From Isoetes taiwanensis (taxonomy: Eukaryota; Streptophyta; Lycopodiopsida; Isoetales; Isoetaceae), in NCBI GenBank assembly GCA_021234155.1, contig JAJEKV010000049.1:9588292-9652291 (forward strand): a DNA stretch of 64,000 nucleotides, given 5' to 3'. The notes beneath the pieces were generated by a model that worked only from the letters and a program-made list of their open reading frames with translations, was not told the origin of the DNA and ran no database searches. The position numbers and the translations under genes were made by a program. Shown here piece after piece: positions 22,548-42,895 of this stretch; position 1 is the stretch's first letter, and every line of letters begins with the position of its first letter.

Positions 22548-23680
<1,133 letters not shown>

Positions 23681-23777: not shown

Positions 23778-25867
23778 TAATACAATTTTATTCTAGTTCT
23801 ACTAGAAAAGCGGCCGCCCTCTTTTCTGTGTGTGAGATGTGCTTTCACGTTAAGCATAGTCCATATGTGCAAGTTTTGTTCATATCTTTTTGAATTGTAT
23901 GTATAGTTTATTCAATACCTCCATATGGATGGGTTAATACTCAATTAAAAAACAAACCATATACATATAGTCCTTCTGCGGATCTTGTTAATATAATATT
24001 GCTTTTGCTAGAATTATCATCTTCCTTGCTTCGAAGCGTTCATTGTTTACCTGCCTCTTAGTGTCATTTCCTGTCTCATGCTGAAAATTTGGAAAAATCT
24101 ACAATCTGACTCTTTTGTTTATTTGGTTACCTTACGTCATCCTTATTAAGTTTGGTGTATTCTTCTACCATTTTTGGTACATGGATTTGAGGTTTGCTAG
24201 TTCAGTAGAGGTCAGTATTTAGGAAGTTAAAAGTTGCTGAGAAGTTAGGAAGTCTTCCATTCTTATATTATGTGGTAAGCGACAACTAAACCTGTTGCTG
24301 TATCTTTAATACTACAGATACTAATATCTTTCAACCATTATGAACATGCTAAATTGGATTTAGGTGACTTTTGTTAGCCACATATTTCCTCTATTGTATT
24401 ATGCCGACTATCATTAAATTAAGTGTCTTCAAGACTGTAAAGCGCTTATTGGCTAGAGAAGTGCCTAGATATTGCAGGGAAGGCACTGCTATGGAGAACT
24501 CAGCCTTTTCGCTGCTGATGGTGCCGGTTGGGCAGTGGTGCAGCTGGGTTTTTTTGTTTACTTGGCCCCTTCTATTTATTGCCGGCTCGAAGCCTGTGTT
24601 TGGGGTATGCATGCTTCACAGACAGAAAAGAGGCCAAAAGAGCAGCATCTGGGCCTGTACATGCTGAGACTCACAGCACCCCTGTTGAAGCTCCTTTGGA
24701 TTAGAAGTTTAGGTTCTACGTATTCAAGGCAACACAGAGCAAAAGAATGTATAGAGATTAAGGAAGAGTTGGGTGCTAGATCTTAAAGCCTGAGCAAATC
24801 CACGCCTATGTGTTGCCTGTTGCCCAAAAGTTAAATGCAGGTATTCTGATAAACATGAACAATCTTAAACAGCCATGCTAAATTGGCATTTGGGCAATCT
24901 TGGCTACGGCTAAGAATAAACTGCTGAACATTTTGAAGACATCCACTAAGCTGAACAATACTTCAAAATCAAACTCTGCAATAAATCGTAAGCTTGGCTA
25001 TGGCAAATACAAATGCATGGTAAAACAAAGATGTAAACCGGCACTGATTTCCAATGAGTTGGGCCGCAAATTTTACCTTTGAACCGCTTTCTTAGTGAGT
25101 GGAATGGGCAGTGATCGTATAGAAGCAGAATAGAATGGCTCCATAGCAGACTGTTAGGTGCTGAACCTTGTTATCTGATGAGCCCGAAATCTAAGTACTG
25201 GATCCCCCTAAATGACTCAGTCCCCAGTGCTCACAAATCTGCCAGATATTTCTGTATACAGTGAAGAATGCAGAAGCTTCCAGATTTTTGCGTTACCTCA
25301 AATCTATGTTCTCGAAGGAGCTAACATCTCCAACAGGTCAGCAGTCGCTGCTAAACTTGGATCAACCATCTATTATAGCGCCGATACCATCCGGCTATCA
25401 CACAACATAACCTTGAATCAACCATCTTTTTATATTATAGCTTCCGGATGCTCGTGATCTAGAACACGGGAAGCTTGAACCAAATCCTATCACACAACAT
25501 AGCACAGGTATATGTTTAGAATTTATCCATTTTCAAAGATTCATTGCTAAATCCATGCATGAGGAGTACGTACTACCATGCAAGTGTACACACACATCAC
25601 CTATGAGGAGGTTACTTTAGAATATTTTCCATTCTTATTCATAATACAATCCTCATTTGTTCAAGGAATTTCTCATGTTACTCGGTATCCATGCCTATTA
25701 CTAATTGTAAAAGTATCATTCATGAGGAGCCTACTCACACTTACTACCATGTAAGTCCATACACACATCTTACTACTACTTCCAAAGTATCACGCATTGG
25801 GAGCTTAGTACATCTACTATGAATTTTAAAGTACAACCTCTGTATGTTCAAGGAATAGACCCTTTAT
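23778..25867 (-). other. Helitron 3' non-coding region
   Basis: No ORF with family support. Bases 25230-25475 are shared with 43125-43445 (for example GTATACAGTGAAGAATGCAG, CCTCAAATCTATGTTCTC and CTATCACACAACATAAC), which ties the 43-kb Helitron relic to the same family. Confidence 0.6.
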
Positions 25868-28800
25868 TTATATGAGTGCCTCTTTATATACAACATTTGG
25901 GGTATATATGCGGTGGTCGTTGCGCAATGCACCCTGACGCGATGTCTCTGTAATAGCGATTTTGACTCCATCCTGTGAAGTGCACCTCGAGAGGGCGACA
26001 TAAAGTTGTCCATGCGCGAAAACTGGCGCTGGCAAGTAAAGCCCGACAGTCTCCAGAGATTGTCCTTGCGACTTATTGATCGTCATTGAGAATGCTAATC
26101 GGATCGGGTATTGTCTCCTGGTGAAGGGTATGTGCGAATCAGATGGCGTCAAGTTGATCTTTGGCAATAGGACCGGGTGCCTCTCGACCGCCCCGCGACT
26201 ATCTCCGCCCGTAGGATTCTCTGTGTTGCATGTGTGATGCGCAGACGTGTTCCGTTGCATAGACCACCTTGAGGATACATATTCCTAAGCAACATTACTA
26301 TTGCTCCCACCTTGATATTGAGTTTGTGAGGCGGCAGGCCGGAAGGTGTGAGGTGATTGATAAATTCAATTGGGAAGTTTCTGATATCCTCTTCATCCTC
26401 CATGTTGAGAGTATCAATACCGATATATGAGTGCAAGTCTCCATGCAACCTTTGCAAAGTCTTATCACTAAGACTCAATGTATCTTCATTTTTTGGAGAT
26501 AGTATAGATTTCTCGAAGAGGTATTCCATGTTTGCTGGGTCGATACTCGTTCCAAACACCTCATCGATAATGTTATTTTTCTTAACACACTTGCTCGGTA
26601 GCTCAACGACGTCTGCAGGAAGCGTAGGCTCGTCATTCATACGTTCTCCATCTCCAAGCTTTAGCAAGTATTCAGACCATTCCTTTTCGCCTTTGTGGAC
26701 ACGTAAGTTCGTTGTCAATTTAAAAGTCTTAAAGTGCTTCCATAGGGGGTTGCTCTTGACGCATTTTGAAAGAATCTCCATTTTTCTGGCTCGTTTGATT
26801 ACAGGTAGTTGCTGCCTGAAATCGCCGCCAGCTAATACTATCATTCCTCCAAATGGTCTAGGGTCCCGTCGTATTTCTTTCAAGACAAGTGTCATCGCCG
26901 TGGAGTGCATCGGAATGCGTCATGCTTAACTCATCCCACACCAGAAGCGTTGCTTTTCTTAGTCTATCCGCCTGCTTGCTCGTGGGACGCAGGTCAGATG
27001 TTGCTTCAGGTGTTAGGTTTAGTGGGAGCTTGAATGTAGAGTGCACTGTTTGGGCTCCTTTGAGCAAAAGGCTTGCTATGCCTGTCCATGCGACTGCGAC
27101 AACACCGAGTTCTCTTCCTCTTAACATGGTGATAATCGTATTGAAGACGAATGTTTTCCCAGATCCTCCAGGACCATCCACGTTTATGCACGAATCCGAT
27201 GGTTGTCCCCCGTCAATTGCAAGGAGAACGGCATCAGCTATTTCTTTTTGGTCTGGAGTTAATTTGCCGTATCGCTCATCTCCTTTAGCTTTTTCGGAGG
27301 CTACATCGAATGTTTGGCTTATTGTTGCATCATGGTGCTGGGTTAGCCTTGGTTCTGGGAGTTGATTTGACTGACAATTCGTTCCATTTGCAAGGAAGAT
27401 TTCATTCATGGATAGCAATGCTGCATTGTATGCATCTTCCTCTGGCATGTCACGGGCGTAATCTTCTGCTAAATGGCGCTTAAATTTCTCCCATAGCTCC
27501 AGTGGATCTGAGGGAGGTCCATATATGCAGATAAAGGCGAATGTTTGGCGCAATTGAGCAGGCATTTGAAAAGTAACTGCATCGTTGAGCGTCCTTTCCC
27601 ACTCTGCATCATCTGCCAATAGTCCGAGTTCTTTTGCCGTGTCGTGAAATGTATTGCATTGCTTTCCATTAACATTCTTCATGTCTTCGAAGCTGGTGAT
27701 CCCTTTTCTGTGTAGCAGCAACAGGCGCAAGTAATATCTTTCCATGTCTTTTGGGCTCACATTATACATCCTTGAAATCAGCTTATATTTGCCCTCTCTT
27801 ATTTTCCAAATGCCCTCGCCTTTTATGAATGTATAGTGATGGGGAATTTCTGGATATGTGTATTGTCGAGCGGCCATGTCTATTTTATTCAGCTCGAACC
27901 AAGCAGTGAGCATCGTGTGTTTCGTTGCAGCACGTTCTAAGGCAATCCGTTCCTGGCCCTCTTCATAGTATACCATTTGTCTGTTAGGCAGGTGAACAGG
28001 TAACCTATGCACAGTGTGGGAGGTGTGGTGCATTTTGTAACCATACGTTCTCCACATTGCTTCTGGTGCAGAAATGTATCTGGTATCGAGGAATTCTTGT
28101 ACCTCATCCCAATTATATGTGGGCAGCGTATTTGCATCTGGGTGAGCAGTCAACTTAATGCTTGCTCGATCGTGGCCCTTATGAATATATTTGAAAATAT
28201 ATTTTATGCTTGCAACACTAAAACACTGCTCCACATTTATATGGCAGTCGTATTTCTGCAAGAGGTAGGGATTGTATGGGACAACCATGCTGTTGTCTAT
28301 CGTTCGATTCCCTTGCTCATATTGCATGCCAGCGCGTCGTCTGTACTCTGGATACCCATTCTCTTTGATTGACGTGCTTTCGGTAAAAGGCTTTGGAAAA
28401 CCTTTGGAACATTCCATCATTCCATTTTTTTCATTTAATTTCATGCACCGCGGGCCACATGGTCCATGCACCATGCACTTCTTCACAATTTCGTGCAACT
28501 CAGGGTTCTCCAATGGGTCTGGTATCTCTGCACTTGTGATCTTATCAATGTCATCGCTATCACGTATTTTATCTGCTTGTTCCATTATTAGGAGCATATG
28601 GCAGTGTGGCAAACCTCGCTTTTGATACTCAATTGTGTATGTATAGGCTTTAACTTTTCCAAGAATATCTCGTTCTAAAATATCATAGAGGATTGCCATC
28701 AATTTCATGTGGTATACACGGGCGACCACGTCTGGTCTATCCTCTGGTGATTGGCCTCTTTCTAAATTGTCTTTTATCTCAGGCCAATTCGCGTTACATG

Positions 28801-30244
28801 TAATTGTAATGAATATATCAGCCTTCCCAAATCTCCTGACCAGTGCCATAGAGTCTTGATAGTTTTGTTCCATAGCCCGTTTGCCACCAATGAACGATGA
28901 CGGTAAGATGATCAATTTCCCAGACCCCAGGCCCTGTGCCTCTGCCTCATGGTTCACGTAGTCGATGAGACCATCGTACATCTCAGCTCGGAATTTCTTT
29001 TGGTTGAGTCTGTAGAAGTTCAAGGTGTTGGCCTCTATCCTTGCATAGGCGTCGACTATGAACTGTTGTGTCAATCTCCCCCCGCTCAATAGGGGATTGA
29101 AAGCAAATTTAAGGTCCTCGGCGCCTTCTGTATTCGTCCGTGTGCTTAGTCTATACAAATAGTACTGCAACATGGACACATTTTGCCTCGATCGACTTGA
29201 GGAAGTGTTTGTTTCATTTCTCATGTTCATTTCCCATCCCTTGTCACCAGAGGGCAGTAACAACGGGTAAGTCAGAGCATCGATGTACGGGTCGGTGATG
29301 GGAATATTTCTTAAGCCGCCACCTCTTTGATGGATGCATATATCTCTGTTGAAAGGTGGCTCGCCATCCGGATTTACGAAGATCACAGCGACTTCATTAG
29401 CATATGCAGGATTATATCTTCGCAAGTCCAGCCCTGTTCTATCGTCACTAAAATACATCTTTACTTCTGCATGCTCATTTAGTCGACGTGCATTGTCTTC
29501 CACCTCGTGCATCATATGCAAGGCTTGCGCAAATGGGTTCACAGTCCTTATTTCTAAGTCAAGTTGCCCCATAAGGTCCATGTCACACTCTGCATTGTGC
29601 ACATCTTGTGTACGCTCCTCATTCGCATACTCCATATCTAGGATGTACAATTGAGCATATTTCGGTGGCACATTATCATCGGGGTGAGCAGGCCCAGATC
29701 TATGATACACCTGGCCATGGATCTTAAAGCAATATGGGCCCGGTGTGCTGAAATGTTGTATGTCTGCTCCAAATGATACAAATGCCAATGCATTATTGTA
29801 AATTCTGATGTGGGACTTGAACTCTTTGCTTTTTGGGTGATCCCCAATGAGCAGGTGGTATAGCAAGTACGGCATTGTTGTCAAAGGCGGGAGGCTAACT
29901 TTGCCATCATAACAACACTTTGTATCATCGTCTTTAAATGCTAGAGCATGGCAGTGCTTGCACTCCCGGTCCAGTTCTCCGCAGTGATGGGGCTTGACGT
30001 GCATTGAATGGTCAGTTCGGGCTATTCTATAAGTTGAAGGATTATCTCGGTTTGCCCGTCTTTGTTGAGCCTCTACAGCCAACCTTTCAACATGTTCCTC
30101 CTCTGTCTCCCCTTGTTGCATCATGAGCCTATTAGTTGCCACTTGTTCTGCGTGGTGGGCCAGCCTAGCAGCACGCTCCTCCTCTGTCTCTTCTTGTCGC
30201 GCCATGAACCTGCTGGCCGCCACTTCCTCTGCATGGTGGTCCAA
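25868..30244 (-). pseudogene. Helitron Rep/helicase (RepHel), two frameshifts
   Basis: The first frame (30244-26858, 1128 codons) has a Cys-rich region near residues 88-99, a Helitron-like N-terminal domain and the HUH motif LPHCHM (His547, His549). It also has the catalytic tyrosines in KYIFKYIHK (Tyr682, Tyr686), a Walker A GPGGSGKT ending at Lys1030-Thr1031, and a Walker B LVWDELSM (Asp1104-Glu1105). Just after HSDALH the frame breaks (about 26875-26900). The helicase continues in a second frame with GGMIVLAGGDFRQQLPVI up to LRAEIVAGR, and breaks again near 26170-26190. The third frame supplies [20 protein letters not shown] and YVALSRCTS and ends at 25868. RepHel nicks and unwinds DNA for rolling-circle transposition. 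All motifs needed are present, but not in one frame. No RPA or endonuclease domain is seen. Confidence 0.93.
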
Positions 30245-30926
30245 CCTAGCAAAGACGCTCCTCTTACAATGCTCCCTGCGTTAAACCATGAACCTATTGC
30301 GTTTGCCACTTCTACTCGTAGATGGTGCGCTTGAGCCTAGCATTGCCGCGCTCCATCTTCGCTCTCCCCCAATGCAGTGCTATGGACACCAATGGCGCCT
30401 TTGCCACCACATGCGGTGGGCGGAATCCCTAGCGGCCACCCGCTGCTCCTCGTCTCCCCGTGTTTCCGTGCTCACGGACTGGCGGCGCCATTGCCTGCAA
30501 TGCGGTGGGCCCGCCCTGGCGACCGCGCTCCTCCTCTCCTTCCCCTGTCGTCTTTTGTGGACTCGCTGCCGCCTTTGCCTAAATGCGGTGGGCCTAGCCT
30601 AGATGCATGCCTCCTCTTCTCGTTTCCCTTTGTCGTGCGGGCCATGCATCCGCGGGTCAGCAAATCCCCTCTGGACGTGGTGGGCCGCCTTTAACAGCAT
30701 ACTCCTCCTCTGTTTGTTTATTCTTTATTTGTGCTCTTCTATTTCTTTGTGCTTCGGCAGCTCTGTCTAACCTTGCTTGTCGCTCCTCTGCTGTCTCTGT
30801 TGCGAGCAACCGTTGTCTTCTAGTTTGATATCTTTCTCTATCCCGGGCACGCCTAGCTTCTTGCTCCTCTAATGTCTCCTCTTTCCGTTTGCGTGGCATT
30901 GTTTTATTTTTAGCTTCTTTTATCAA
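30245..30926 (-). pseudogene. Degenerate N-terminal repeat region of the RepHel gene
   Basis: A minus-strand ORF from 30926 (a second Met at 30899) encodes MPRKRKEETLEEQEARRARD, then RQRLLATETAEERQARLDRA and AEAQRNRRAQIKNKQTEEE before leaving frame near 30700. Between there and 30250 the DNA is made of diverged units that resemble the 28-residue repeat at the start of the long frame (EETEEERAARLAHHAEQVAT). The likely original N-terminus was therefore a basic stretch followed by several Glu/Arg/Ala-rich, coiled-coil-like repeats, now scrambled by indels. Confidence 0.7.
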
Positions 30927-31736
30927 CTATATGTTCTGCACAACCAATATATAAAAGCATAGTTAAAACAGGGAGCTTGGACCATTTTAAAAACCTTTTA
31001 ACCAAAAAAGGTCATATGCTTGCATAAAGCTCTCTATGTAGAACTATTCAAATCATTACACAATATCACAAAATTCTTATTCTAATCACATCCTAATACT
31101 TTCTATTTTAGGCCTCTGGAGCGTACTGAGGCTCCCAAAACATCAAAAAATGTTTATTCTAACTACGCGCCTAAACTTTCTATTCTTGGCTTCAACCGCT
31201 GTCAGGGCACTATTCTAACAAAGTTTCTATTTCTGGATCATTGAAACCATTGCAAAGTATCAAGAAAATACTATGAAACCTTACAAAATGCTTATTCTAA
31301 CAATATGCTTAAACTTTCTATTTTGGATTAGAGGCAAGTTTCTATTTTTAGACATTCTATCTATCTACAATCATTCAAAACACTGCAAAACATCAGCAAA
31401 TGCTTATTGTAACTACATACTAAAACTTTCTATTTTGGGCCTTAGTCTCTAAAACTTTCTATTTTGGGCCGTAGTGACTGTCAGGGATGCACTAAACGTT
31501 AGTTGTTACTCGGACGGGCGCTAGAGAACCAAAGCGTCAAATGGAGCACCTCTGGGTGTTCTTCCGCTATATTCCGGACACTTTTGATTCAATCAACGCG
31601 CTCCCTTCTACTATCCCGCAGGGTTTGTGAATGCCACCCCACACTTCCTTATAGAAAAGTAGGGCCCCCCGCATAGATAGCCATAAAATTCGCCTGACCT
31701 TAACTATTTGTGAAGTTCCAATTGCTTAATAAATTG

Positions 31737-31805
31737 GTGCTTGGCCTAGTGGTAAGGATGAACGTCTTGGGGGGCAATGAGCAGGGTTCGAAACCCCCAC
31801 AAAAT
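31737..31805 (+). repeat. tRNA-like Pol III module 1
   Basis: TGGCCTAGTGG at 31742-31752 fits the A-box and GGTTCGAAACC at 31785-31795 fits the B-box consensus exactly, 32 bases apart. There is no tRNA acceptor stem pairing. It is best read as the head of a tRNA-derived SINE or a tRNA pseudogene. About 45 bases before it (CCTTAACTAT ... TGAA) are shared with module 2. Confidence 0.6.
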
Positions 31806-32159
31806 AGGAGACATTTTGAAAAGCGCTAAGAACATTTTAAAATCTAAAACATTCTAGAACATCTTTCCTTTTACTCATTCCTATTTCATAAATTTTGAAT
31901 TTTGGTATTATTCTTTGGCATCTCCCCCCTCCCTAAAACATTCTCTTTCTGAGCTCTCTCAAAAGCTCTCTCTCATTCTCTAGATTTTCCCTTTATTCTA
32001 GAACATCTCTCTCTTGAGTATCAACAAACTCTCTCCTCTCCCTATTTTCCCCAAAAAGTTCTCTCTCTATCTTTCTCATCTAGAGCATCCTTGAATTTTC
32101 TAAAACTTTGCTTTTATTTTTCTCTCTCCCATCTTTCAAAAAACTTGCTATTTTTTTAT

Positions 32160-32990
32160 TTTGCAAAGTTTCAAAAAGATATTTTTATTTAGGTTTGGCA
32201 AAAGAACATTCTAGAAGATTATAGAGCATCTAGAACATTCTAGAACATCCTAGAGCATCCTTCAATTGTTTGCAACATTCTATTATGAGTTCTTGCAAAC
32301 TTTCAAAAAACTTTCTATTTTTAGATTTGATACTCATGAGTATTTAAAATACCCCAGAACATTCTATCTTGAGCATTTACAAAGTCTCAAAAAATCTTAA
32401 CATTTTATTATGAGTTCCTACAAACTTTTAGATAACTTTCTATGTTTAGATTATGGTACTTTCTATTTTTAGACTGAGGTGCTTATCCGTGAGCATCTGA
32501 AACATTCCAAAACATTCTATTTTGAGCATTTGCAAAGTTCTGAAAACTTCTATTTTTAGATATTCTAGAAGATTCCAGAAGGTCTGAAACATTCCAGACC
32601 ATTCTATTTTGAGCATTTGTAAAATTTCAAAAAATTTCTATTTTTAGACATTCTAGAAGATTGTAGAAGATCCTAGGACATTCTAGAAGATTCTAGGACA
32701 TTCTAGAAGCTTCTAGAGCCATCTAGAACATTCTAGAACATCCTAGACCATTCTTGAATTATTTGGCCCTAAAAAAACTTCTATTTTTAGATATTCTAGA
32801 AGATTCCAGAAGGTGTGAAACATTCCAGACCATTCTATTTTGAGGATTTGCAAAATTTCAAAAAACTTCTATTTTTAGATATTCTAGAAGATTCTAGAAG
32901 ATTCTAGGACATTCTAGAAGATTCTAGGACATTCTAGAAGCTTCTAGAGCCATCTAGAACATTCTAGAATATCCTAGGCCATCCTTGAAT
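32160..32990. repeat. Array of TTCTAGAA / heat-shock-element-like repeats
   Basis: At least a dozen exact TTCTAGAA words occur between 31850 and 32970, most between 32200 and 32970, with many near-matches (ATTCCAGAAGGT, TTCTAGAGC). At 32882-32902 five consecutive 5-bp units alternate TTC and GAA with 2-base gaps, a perfect extended heat-shock element. Two longer blocks (about 32520-32745 and 32770-32975) are near-duplicates of each other. The array lies about 1.3-2 kb upstream of the RepHel start, inside the Helitron. Confidence 0.85.
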
Positions 32991-33040
32991 TATTTGGCAC
33001 CACCCTTAACTATATATGAACTTCCTATTTTTTCAAGAAA

Positions 33041-33110
33041 CCAGTGCTTGGTCTAGTGGTAAGGGTGGGGGGTTTGGGGGGGCAATGTCCAGGGTTCAAG
33101 TCCGTGGTAA
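33041..33110 (+). repeat. tRNA-like Pol III module 2
   Basis: TGGTCTAGTGG at 33049-33059 is an A-box and GGTTCAAGTCC at 33093-33103 a B-box-like word. The module and its preceding CCTTAACTATATATGAA are parallel to module 1 at 31737. The pair brackets the TTCTAGAA array. Confidence 0.55.
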
Positions 33111-33254
33111 ACCAAAAAAATTTTGTCCACCAAACTTGGGAGCTTTTGAGAGGCCAAGGCCCACGGACGGCCCAGATCAAGCCACGTGGCGCCTCCTTCA
33201 CCGTCGATGGGGGTGGAGTTACTCACAGACTAACCGACTCACTCACTCACGGAC

Positions 33255-33282
33255 GGTATTCTTTTATTATATTAGAGGAGGA
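33255..33282 (-). other. Helitron 5' terminus
   Basis: Reading the minus strand from 33282: TCCTCCTCTAATATAATAAA, then AGAATACCGTCC and GTGAGTGAGTGAG repeats. The preceding base is A. A close relative is at 43585. Confidence 0.8.
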
Positions 33283-33283
33283 T

Positions 33284-33475
33284 TATTATAGGTAGACATG
33301 AAGTTGTAGGCATAAGTTCAGAGTTCTCTGATTGTCCCTCCCTTCCCCCCCCCTCGTTTTTGGGTTGCCTCTAGGGGGGCAATCCCTTGTTTATGTGGGT
33401 TTTTGGCATATTCATGGTATATGCTAACATATGCCTAGAATATGCCAAAAACTGCTAAAAACCTGATGTAAGCTG
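33284..33475 (+). repeat. Helitron flank plus repeat R4
   Basis: 33284-33345 (GGTAGACATGAAGTTGTAGG, CATAAGTTCAGAGTTCTCTG) also flanks the Helitron end at 43585 and lies inverted at 62030-62090. From 33358 it changes to repeat R4 (GGGTTGCCTCTAGGGGGGC, TTATGTGGGTTTTTGGCAT, then ATATGC words), which also occurs near 16880, 42755 and 54400. Confidence 0.75.
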
Positions 33476-33805
33476 TAAATGCTAGGTCGTCTCTATTGGC
33501 AAGCGGCTGCTGTGCATACCGGCTAACCGGAAGTTCGGATGCATGGAGGCCATCGGCATGAGAATAGAATCGAAAAGCGGGAGCCGACGTGAGGATGGAT
33601 ATTCTACCTCTCCTCCATCCCTCCCTTTCATCCTTCGTTCCATCTTATTCTAATTCGATTCGGGCTCTCAAGATCCTAATTAAATATTCTATTGATGCAT
33701 TATTTTATCAAGCTGATTTGGGTCCAGATCTGATTTGATCTGGCTCAACTTCGCTATAATATGAAAAACGAGTGATCGTTTTCCTGCTGACTGACTTCCA
33801 TGTAG

Positions 33806-42739: not shown

Positions 42740-42895
42740 AAACAGAAACTACCCCTTTTTGGGTTGCCCCTAGAAGGCAATCCCTTGCTTATGTGGGTTT
42801 TTGGCATATTCATGGTATATGCTAGCATATGCCTAGAATATGCCAAAAACTGCTCCAAACCTGTTGTAAGCTGTACTCTCGGTCTTGGCCATCCA
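42740..42895 (+). repeat. Dispersed repeat R4, copy
   Basis: GGGTTGCCCCTAGAAGGCAA, TTATGTGGGTTTTTGGCATA, TTCATGGTATATGCTAGC and ATGCCTAGAATATGCC match 33358-33475 closely and 54400-54500 and 16880-16990 more loosely. Confidence 0.75.

Follow-up and report, generated by a model that had tools for sequence, protein, structure and literature searches.

The Helitron and its gene

The window, by which we mean the whole 64-kb stretch of Isoetes taiwanensis DNA that was analysed, contains a Helitron on its minus strand, and this Helitron carries an array of heat shock elements (HSEs) near its 5' end. The element and its coding part are laid out as follows.

23,802-33,282, minus strand: Helitron of about 9.48 kb (3' end at 23,802; 5' end at 33,276-33,282, the exact base being uncertain by 6)
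25,868-26,910, minus strand: remaining helicase in other ORFs (26,149-26,910, PIF1 and Pif1_2B; 25,868-26,260)
26,858-30,244, minus strand: RepHel, with Helitron_like_N (Rep) and the first part of the PIF1 helicase (Pfam, 1.2e-58 and 5e-28)
30,657-30,899, minus strand: short ORF at the gene start, 80 codons (frame by eye), ATG at 30,899
30,946-30,953, minus strand: TATA box predicted for RepHel (TATATATT), with the next start codon 54 bp further on

The original prediction that this is a plant Helitron was borne out by the Pfam matches to Rep and helicase, by the 3' terminus and by a 5' end that is common to the copies. Two hallmarks of a Helitron are present, namely a Rep with a PIF1-type helicase and a 3' hairpin with a CTRR end. 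The CTAG at 23,802 is preceded by the hairpin (AGAAAAG..CTTTTCT, recognised by eye) and followed by a T. At the 5' end are TCTAATATAATAAA-like letters that are common to the copies of the subfamily, whose alignment starts there. The 5' TC is present and an insertion between A and T fits with a 5' end at 33,282, yet the copies align only from about 33,276. In three copies (L001, L009, L017), another Helitron-like element ends in CTTT(T)CTAG immediately before the 5' end, in head-to-tail order; at L009 and L017 the end of this preceding element has a GGCC-rich hairpin.

The helicase of the window's copy is split over several ORFs, and its reading frame is thus broken; two other RepHel copies have open frames of 1,512 and 1,516 codons. 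The short ORF at the gene start is within a block common to the subfamily copies. Read by eye in the 13 subfamily copies of the first batch, the predicted TATA box is TATATATT in seven and a one-base variant in four, with neither in the other two (L012, L013).

Outside the Helitron, the window has two 100-bp repeats (33,378-33,477 and 42,776-42,875) that are 95% alike with a nearly palindromic core, and that perhaps represent a small inverted-repeat element. On the other side of the Helitron, the ORF of a peroxidase exon ends at 23,680, 121 bp from the 3' end. The array had been proposed to make this gene heat-responsive; at a distance of 8.5 kb, and beyond the 3' side of the gene, such an effect is unlikely, and we have rejected it.

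The heat shock element array

Because RepHel, and hence the Helitron, is on the minus strand, the region of the array is called the leader. The array starts about 280 bp inside the 5' end of the Helitron, and between it and the RepHel frame there are a GA-rich tract, a second tRNA-like unit, the TATA-like box and the start codon at 30,899. The features of the leader are the following.

31,342-32,878, no strand assigned: seven MEF2-type CArG words, CTA(A/T)4TAG (CTAAAAATAG)
31,742-31,795: second tRNA-like A-box/B-box unit (pattern match only)
31,852 and 31,996 (span 31,852-32,003): two outlying TTCTAGAA words, around a tract that is GA-rich on the sense strand
32,203-32,998, no strand assigned: HSE array, TTCTAGAAnn with a 10-bp period, comprising 15 HSEs of three units, 4 of four and 1 of five
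32,543-32,767 and 32,774-32,998, no strand assigned: two higher-order copies, spacing 231 bp, 95-96% alike
32,882-32,904, no strand assigned: five-unit perfect HSE TTCTAGAAGATTCTAGAAGATTC
33,049-33,103, plus strand: tRNA-like A-box/B-box unit near the 5' end (pattern match only)

An HSE is made of at least three adjacent, alternating nGAAn/nTTCn units, and the array consists of such runs. The TTCTAGAA word occurs 18 times in the 64 kb, compared with a mean of 1.6 and a maximum of 7 in 100 shuffles; 15 of these words are at 31,852-32,969, and 13 are within 32,160-32,990, where the original prediction had placed them. All 15 three-unit HSEs of the window fall at 32,204-32,969, against a mean of 0.06 and a maximum of 1 in 200 dinucleotide shuffles of the leader, and no HSE of three, four or five units was found in the 64 kb outside 31,837-32,998. 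The five alternating units that had been singled out are indeed in perfect register, but the run extends to 32,904, two bases further than first thought. The module CTnGAAnnTTCnAG, listed as HSE in the plant database PLACE according to PMC2746236, has 11 matches in the window, and every one of them starts within the array, at 32,230-32,954.

The repeat structure of the array is equally clear. Tandem Repeats Finder detected a period of 10 at 32,203-32,258, 32,650-32,758 and 32,881-32,977, that is, a minisatellite (a short tandem unit of fixed period) with 75-80% matches, together with a higher-order repeat of 231 bp (32,543-32,998; 95% matches). A minisatellite with a 10-bp period had been suggested as the alternative to heat shock sites. 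However, when TTCTAGAAnn is repeated every 10 bp, its triplets fall into HSE register by geometry alone, and the two descriptions are compatible.

The array in other copies of the Helitron

The genome has at least 63 RepHel matches, the best 41 of 4,026 candidates having been scored. The comparison was based on the 32 matches, besides the window's own, whose alignment starts no later than residue 85 of the query, using a uniform 4,000 bp upstream of each; assembly gaps take up part of this stretch in L010 (1,516 N) and L013 (600 N). The check that came with the original prediction, whether other family members keep the array, turned out in its favour for the close copies. Among the copies with an identity of at least 84%, all 18 have two or more three-unit HSEs upstream (range 2-19), and 15 have a four-unit HSE; the other three (L011, L015, L016) have two three-unit HSEs each and no longer run. 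A three-unit HSE is present in neither of the two copies at 80-81% identity and in two of the 12 copies below 70%, L019 and L093. The former has two three-unit HSEs and no TTCTAGAA; the latter has 20, and since its downstream pieces match RepHel at 83-88%, it belongs to the subfamily by that part. In nine of the 12 copies below 70%, both TTCTAGAA and three-unit HSEs are absent within 4 kb upstream. The difference between the copies of at least 84% and those below 70% has a Fisher p of 2e-6, to be read with the kinship that makes the copies non-independent. The expectation from shuffled loci is 0.04-0.15 three-unit HSEs (all loci but L091-L094).

The size and place of the array vary among the copies. 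Only the window's leader has more than 10 three-unit HSEs per kb, and the 13 other copies of the first batch have 1-10 (by the three-unit pattern). The array adjoins the tRNA-like unit in the window, but not in several copies (e.g., L009, L011, L014 and L017). Neighbouring TTCTAGAA words in the window and in 19 copies give 42 distances that do not exceed 60 bp, and 40 of these are multiples of 10. The simplest reading of this distribution would be a single gain of the array in the branch of the close copies, with growth and shrinkage afterwards. What can be regarded as firm is that the array exists, that it is in register and that the close RepHel copies have it.

CArG words and tRNA-like units

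The leader has other repeated modules besides the HSEs. The seven CArG words start at 31,342, 32,315, 32,463, 32,550, 32,638, 32,781 and 32,869, most of them interleaved with HSEs. In the 18 subfamily loci, the window's included, CTAAAAATAG makes up 154 of the 156 A/T-only CArG matches; L016 has three CArG words over its whole locus. With nearly all matches being one single sequence, copying accounts for CTAAAAATAG without selection. It appears to be a single word that was multiplied, and the reading as a CArG box under constraint was rejected. If these words were nevertheless bound, the leader would join heat control with gametophyte control, which is the boldest reading of the locus and only a lead.

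The two tRNA-like units flank the array. Ten of the 13 subfamily copies of the first batch match the same pattern, as do four of the eight loci of a second repeat family, element B, described below; this suggests a module that is shared or was captured.

Other carriers of HSEs in the genome

The exact 23-bp word TTCTAGAAnnTTCTAGAAnnTTC has 4,775 matches in the genome (2,412 forward and 2,363 reverse), with overlapping matches, and matches on both strands of one array, counted separately. The same word read backwards has 3 matches (1 + 2), and the word with three-base spacers, which has an 11-bp period and is out of HSE register, has 4 (2 + 2). Twenty places of TTCTAGAAnnTTCTAGAAnnTTC were sampled, non-randomly, all from low-numbered contigs of 0.29-1.8 Mb. 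Five of them are leaders of the Helitron (L023, L028, L029, L035 and L036, the last placed there by its likeness to other members more than to the 5' end). Eight are element B (L022, L024-L027, L030, L038 and, more loosely, L040), three are a longer element C (L021, L034, L037), three are an LTR element D (L031, L032, L039), and one is ambiguous (L033). Thus 15 of the 20 sampled places are outside a recognised leader of the Helitron.

Element B is about 1.2 kb long with an HSE array and one sharp end (L022:1049-2277; 40 of 4,186 first-look candidates were scored), and in places it forms head-to-tail runs (C1082:3,313,940-3,321,202). The letters before its tRNA-like pattern resemble those of the Helitron, and element B is a candidate derivative of the latter. 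A terminal inverted repeat was looked for in nine 3.5-kb loci, and no second, inverted copy of the known end was found there (in L025, L033 and L040, none at all). Element C (L042:2443-6000) is longer than 3.5 kb and has an HSE pair; 40 of its 1,061 first-look candidates were scored. The four ORFs of at least 150 codons in L042 gave no Pfam match up to an E-value of 0.01.

The fourth carrier is an LTR retrotransposon (group D, L041:777-6750) with an HSE in both LTRs, an arrangement like that of ONSEN in a different superfamily. It has matches to gag, RNase H and the integrase zinc finger, and can be read as Gypsy-type from these domains. Its LTRs are 522 bp long and 93.8% alike. In the sense of the matching ORFs, the LTR has a five-unit run GAAggTTCtaGAAtgTTCtaGAA followed, about 71 bp on, by a TATATAAG TATA box (by eye, in one LTR); the site has only two TTCTAGAA words. 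A four-unit HSE is kept in 21 of 22 LTRs, the exception being L065; the 22 comprise the two of L041 and 20 of 42 listed matches, mostly from the less similar half, with 40 of 2,778 first-look candidates scored. The mean identity at the 23-bp site is 0.992, versus 0.967 for the whole LTR, and 12 of 500 windows of the LTR, its own included, are at least as conserved as the site. As the family was found through TTCTAGAAnnTTCTAGAAnnTTC, the presence of an HSE is unsurprising; its place and its conservation, however, were not chosen. This LTR family is the nearest thing to a positive control found in this genome.

Signs for and against a function driven by HSF

If the binding of heat shock factor (HSF) had acted on the array once it existed, less variation would be expected in the triplets than at the nn positions. 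Conservation is 0.837 in the triplets, 0.852 in the TA core, 0.855 in other columns and 0.680 in the spacers among 25 aligned copies of the 225-bp unit, which came from 10 of the 18 loci supplied. The 447 in-register units from 19 loci show agreement, position by position, of 0.84, 0.78, 0.84, 0.88, 0.85, 0.83, 0.83 and 0.83 in the eight bases of the unit, and of no more than 0.51 and 0.36 in the spacer bases. As two tests gave no signal, we dropped the idea that the triplets of the HSEs are conserved to excess in the Helitron through selection. The module CTnGAAnnTTCnAG also fixes the core T and A when units overlap, which weakens the comparison, and many substitutions in transposon copies postdate insertion, where selection need not act.

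The position of the array relative to the gene also speaks against a function. In the window, 1.25 kb separate the predicted RepHel TATA box from the closest three-unit HSE upstream of it; for the 11 other copies with such a box the distance is 0.6-1.4 kb, and L004 has an additional three-unit HSE downstream of it. A single TTCTAGAA word comes nearer to the box of the window, at 0.9 kb. An HSE close to the core promoter, as in ONSEN, is therefore not seen at the predicted TATA box, a result that another start site or an intron in the 5' UTR could alter. The distance of 1.25 kb is not prohibitive in itself, since the comparison described by Garrigues et al. (2019, PMC6927752) took in HSEs within 2.5 kb upstream of start sites.

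The host probably has the means to recognise such sites: the HSF DNA-binding domain gave 16 matches in the genome, a number that includes exon pieces and a few matches with a stop. Three-unit HSEs were found upstream of HSP20 genes in six of 20 regions, compared with 0.66 in shuffles (maximum 3; n = 100). These regions were drawn from 76 matches, and their 1.5 kb may miss the promoters of genes with an early intron; the 14 without a three-unit HSE include the first 12 taken. Three of the six sites have nearly identical letters and may go back to one event.

Interpretation

With about an even chance of being right, the reading that we favour takes the array as an HSE enhancer specific to the subfamily, located in the 5' leader of an autonomous-type Helitron, with HSF-driven activity. 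Judged from its letters, it looks like the enhancer array of a heat-responsive transposon, short of having an HSE close to the promoter. It would have arisen by amplification of the TTCTAGAAnn unit in 10-bp steps and through the 231-bp duplication, and because the unit is palindromic, every unit added lengthened a perfect HSE. HSF trimers of the host would bind the runs of three to five units, and heat would raise the transcription of RepHel. Such elements would copy themselves during stress, as ONSEN does, and the RepHel RNA of Helitron1_CE rises in C. elegans; the heat response may in this way have helped the element to spread. With its helicase frame broken, the window's copy can at most respond, and cannot move itself.

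Quite possible, although somewhat doubtful, is the neutral alternative, a minisatellite whose unit spread through slippage and unequal exchange and was carried along passively, its register being a by-product without transcriptional effect. The spacing in multiples of 10 fits well with this origin, as do the similar decay of all eight unit positions, with no excess conservation of the triplets, and the separation of the array from the tRNA-like unit in several copies. The word CTAAAAATAG, which is no HSE, was also amplified in the leaders, as mere repeat expansion predicts. Against a purely passive role stand the presence of the array in all 18 close copies and the recurrence of the same kind of site, with two TTCTAGAA words, in a promoter-like position in the LTRs of an unrelated family. 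Furthermore, perfect HSEs of this strength would be expected to bind HSF whether they were selected or not.

The repeats could also be iterons for transposition, the HSE likeness being coincidental. Iterons in rolling-circle replicons are binding sites of Rep, and an array of palindromic words that starts so near to the 5' end, and is present in the close copies, would fit with binding by the element's own Rep. But most copies below 70% identity lack both TTCTAGAA and three-unit HSEs even though they match the same Rep-helicase, and the word is also found in an LTR element, for which no Rep is required; we regard this explanation as improbable. The least probable is an outward promoter, in which the array and TATATATG at about 33,011 would drive heat-induced transcripts out of the 5' end into the flank: the last three-unit HSE of the window is about 40 bp from TATATATG on the plus strand, but this TATATA motif, kept in the window, in one of two L003 units and partly in L012, is AAGCATGG or similar in most of the Helitron copies compared, and we have rejected a promoter at that end because of this loss.

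Returning to the enhancer reading, it can be extended to the genome as a whole, in a form that is rather unlikely to hold in all its parts. In a seed-free plant, and independently of the nematodes, transposons would have captured heat shock control: a Helitron with a composite enhancer of HSEs and CArG words, active in heat and in the gametophyte, where new copies are inherited; a parallel LTR family; and two further high-copy families. Thousands of the genome's strongest HSEs would then be borne by transposable elements and able to put neighbouring genes under the control of HSF. A case in a plant would mean that heat shock sites have repeatedly been taken up by rolling-circle transposons. 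With carriers of both kinds, Helitron and LTR, in a single genome, one can also test whether responding to heat aids the spread of an element.

Comparison with known systems

Short-period tandem arrays inside Helitrons are known in animals, and the array in Isoetes is alike in its short period; what sets it apart is that its unit is a transcription factor site in exact register. The closest comparison is with the Helitrons of Caenorhabditis (Helitron1_CE, HelitronY1_CE and others), in which, according to the relevant passages of Garrigues et al. (PMC6927752), the HSEs fit tandem overlapping repeats and autonomous elements are included. The Helitron here resembles these in both respects, and also in having several HSEs across its copies, as in all 18 of at least 84% identity. 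The parallel with nematodes drawn in the original prediction stands only in part; the same passages report an enrichment of HSEs in Helitrons for Caenorhabditis alone among the metazoan genomes scanned, and consider that the association may be restricted to this genus. There are other differences: one host is a nematode and the other a plant; HSF binding and heat induction were shown there (PMC6927752), while the case here is built on sequence; and the 13 other first-batch copies of Isoetes reach 1-10 HSEs per kb by the three-unit pattern, which is not the motif scan of that paper. With these reservations, the array is probably a plant counterpart of the Caenorhabditis Helitron HSEs.

In the titles and abstract openings of the open-licence literature, we found no report of an HSE array in a plant Helitron, and in titles and abstract openings none of Helitrons in Isoetes. 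The idea of the former is already in print, though the passage in question describes no array.

Among plants, the best-known systems are ONSEN/COPIA78 and the heat-responsive COPIA elements of the Brassicaceae (PMC3907296, PMC5059998), which are like the present case in being plant transposable elements with at least four adjacent nGAAn units. In PMC5059998, the strongest heat responsive elements (HREs) are said to be those that have four adjacent nGAAn units, with induction of up to about a thousand-fold in ONSEN and TERESTRA, and HSFA2 is described as binding the ONSEN LTR in vitro (PMC3907296). ONSEN and its relatives are, however, LTR retrotransposons with the site in the LTR, unlike a Helitron with a long, distal array. 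In its architecture, the nearer match to ONSEN in this genome is the LTR element L041, rather than the Helitron.
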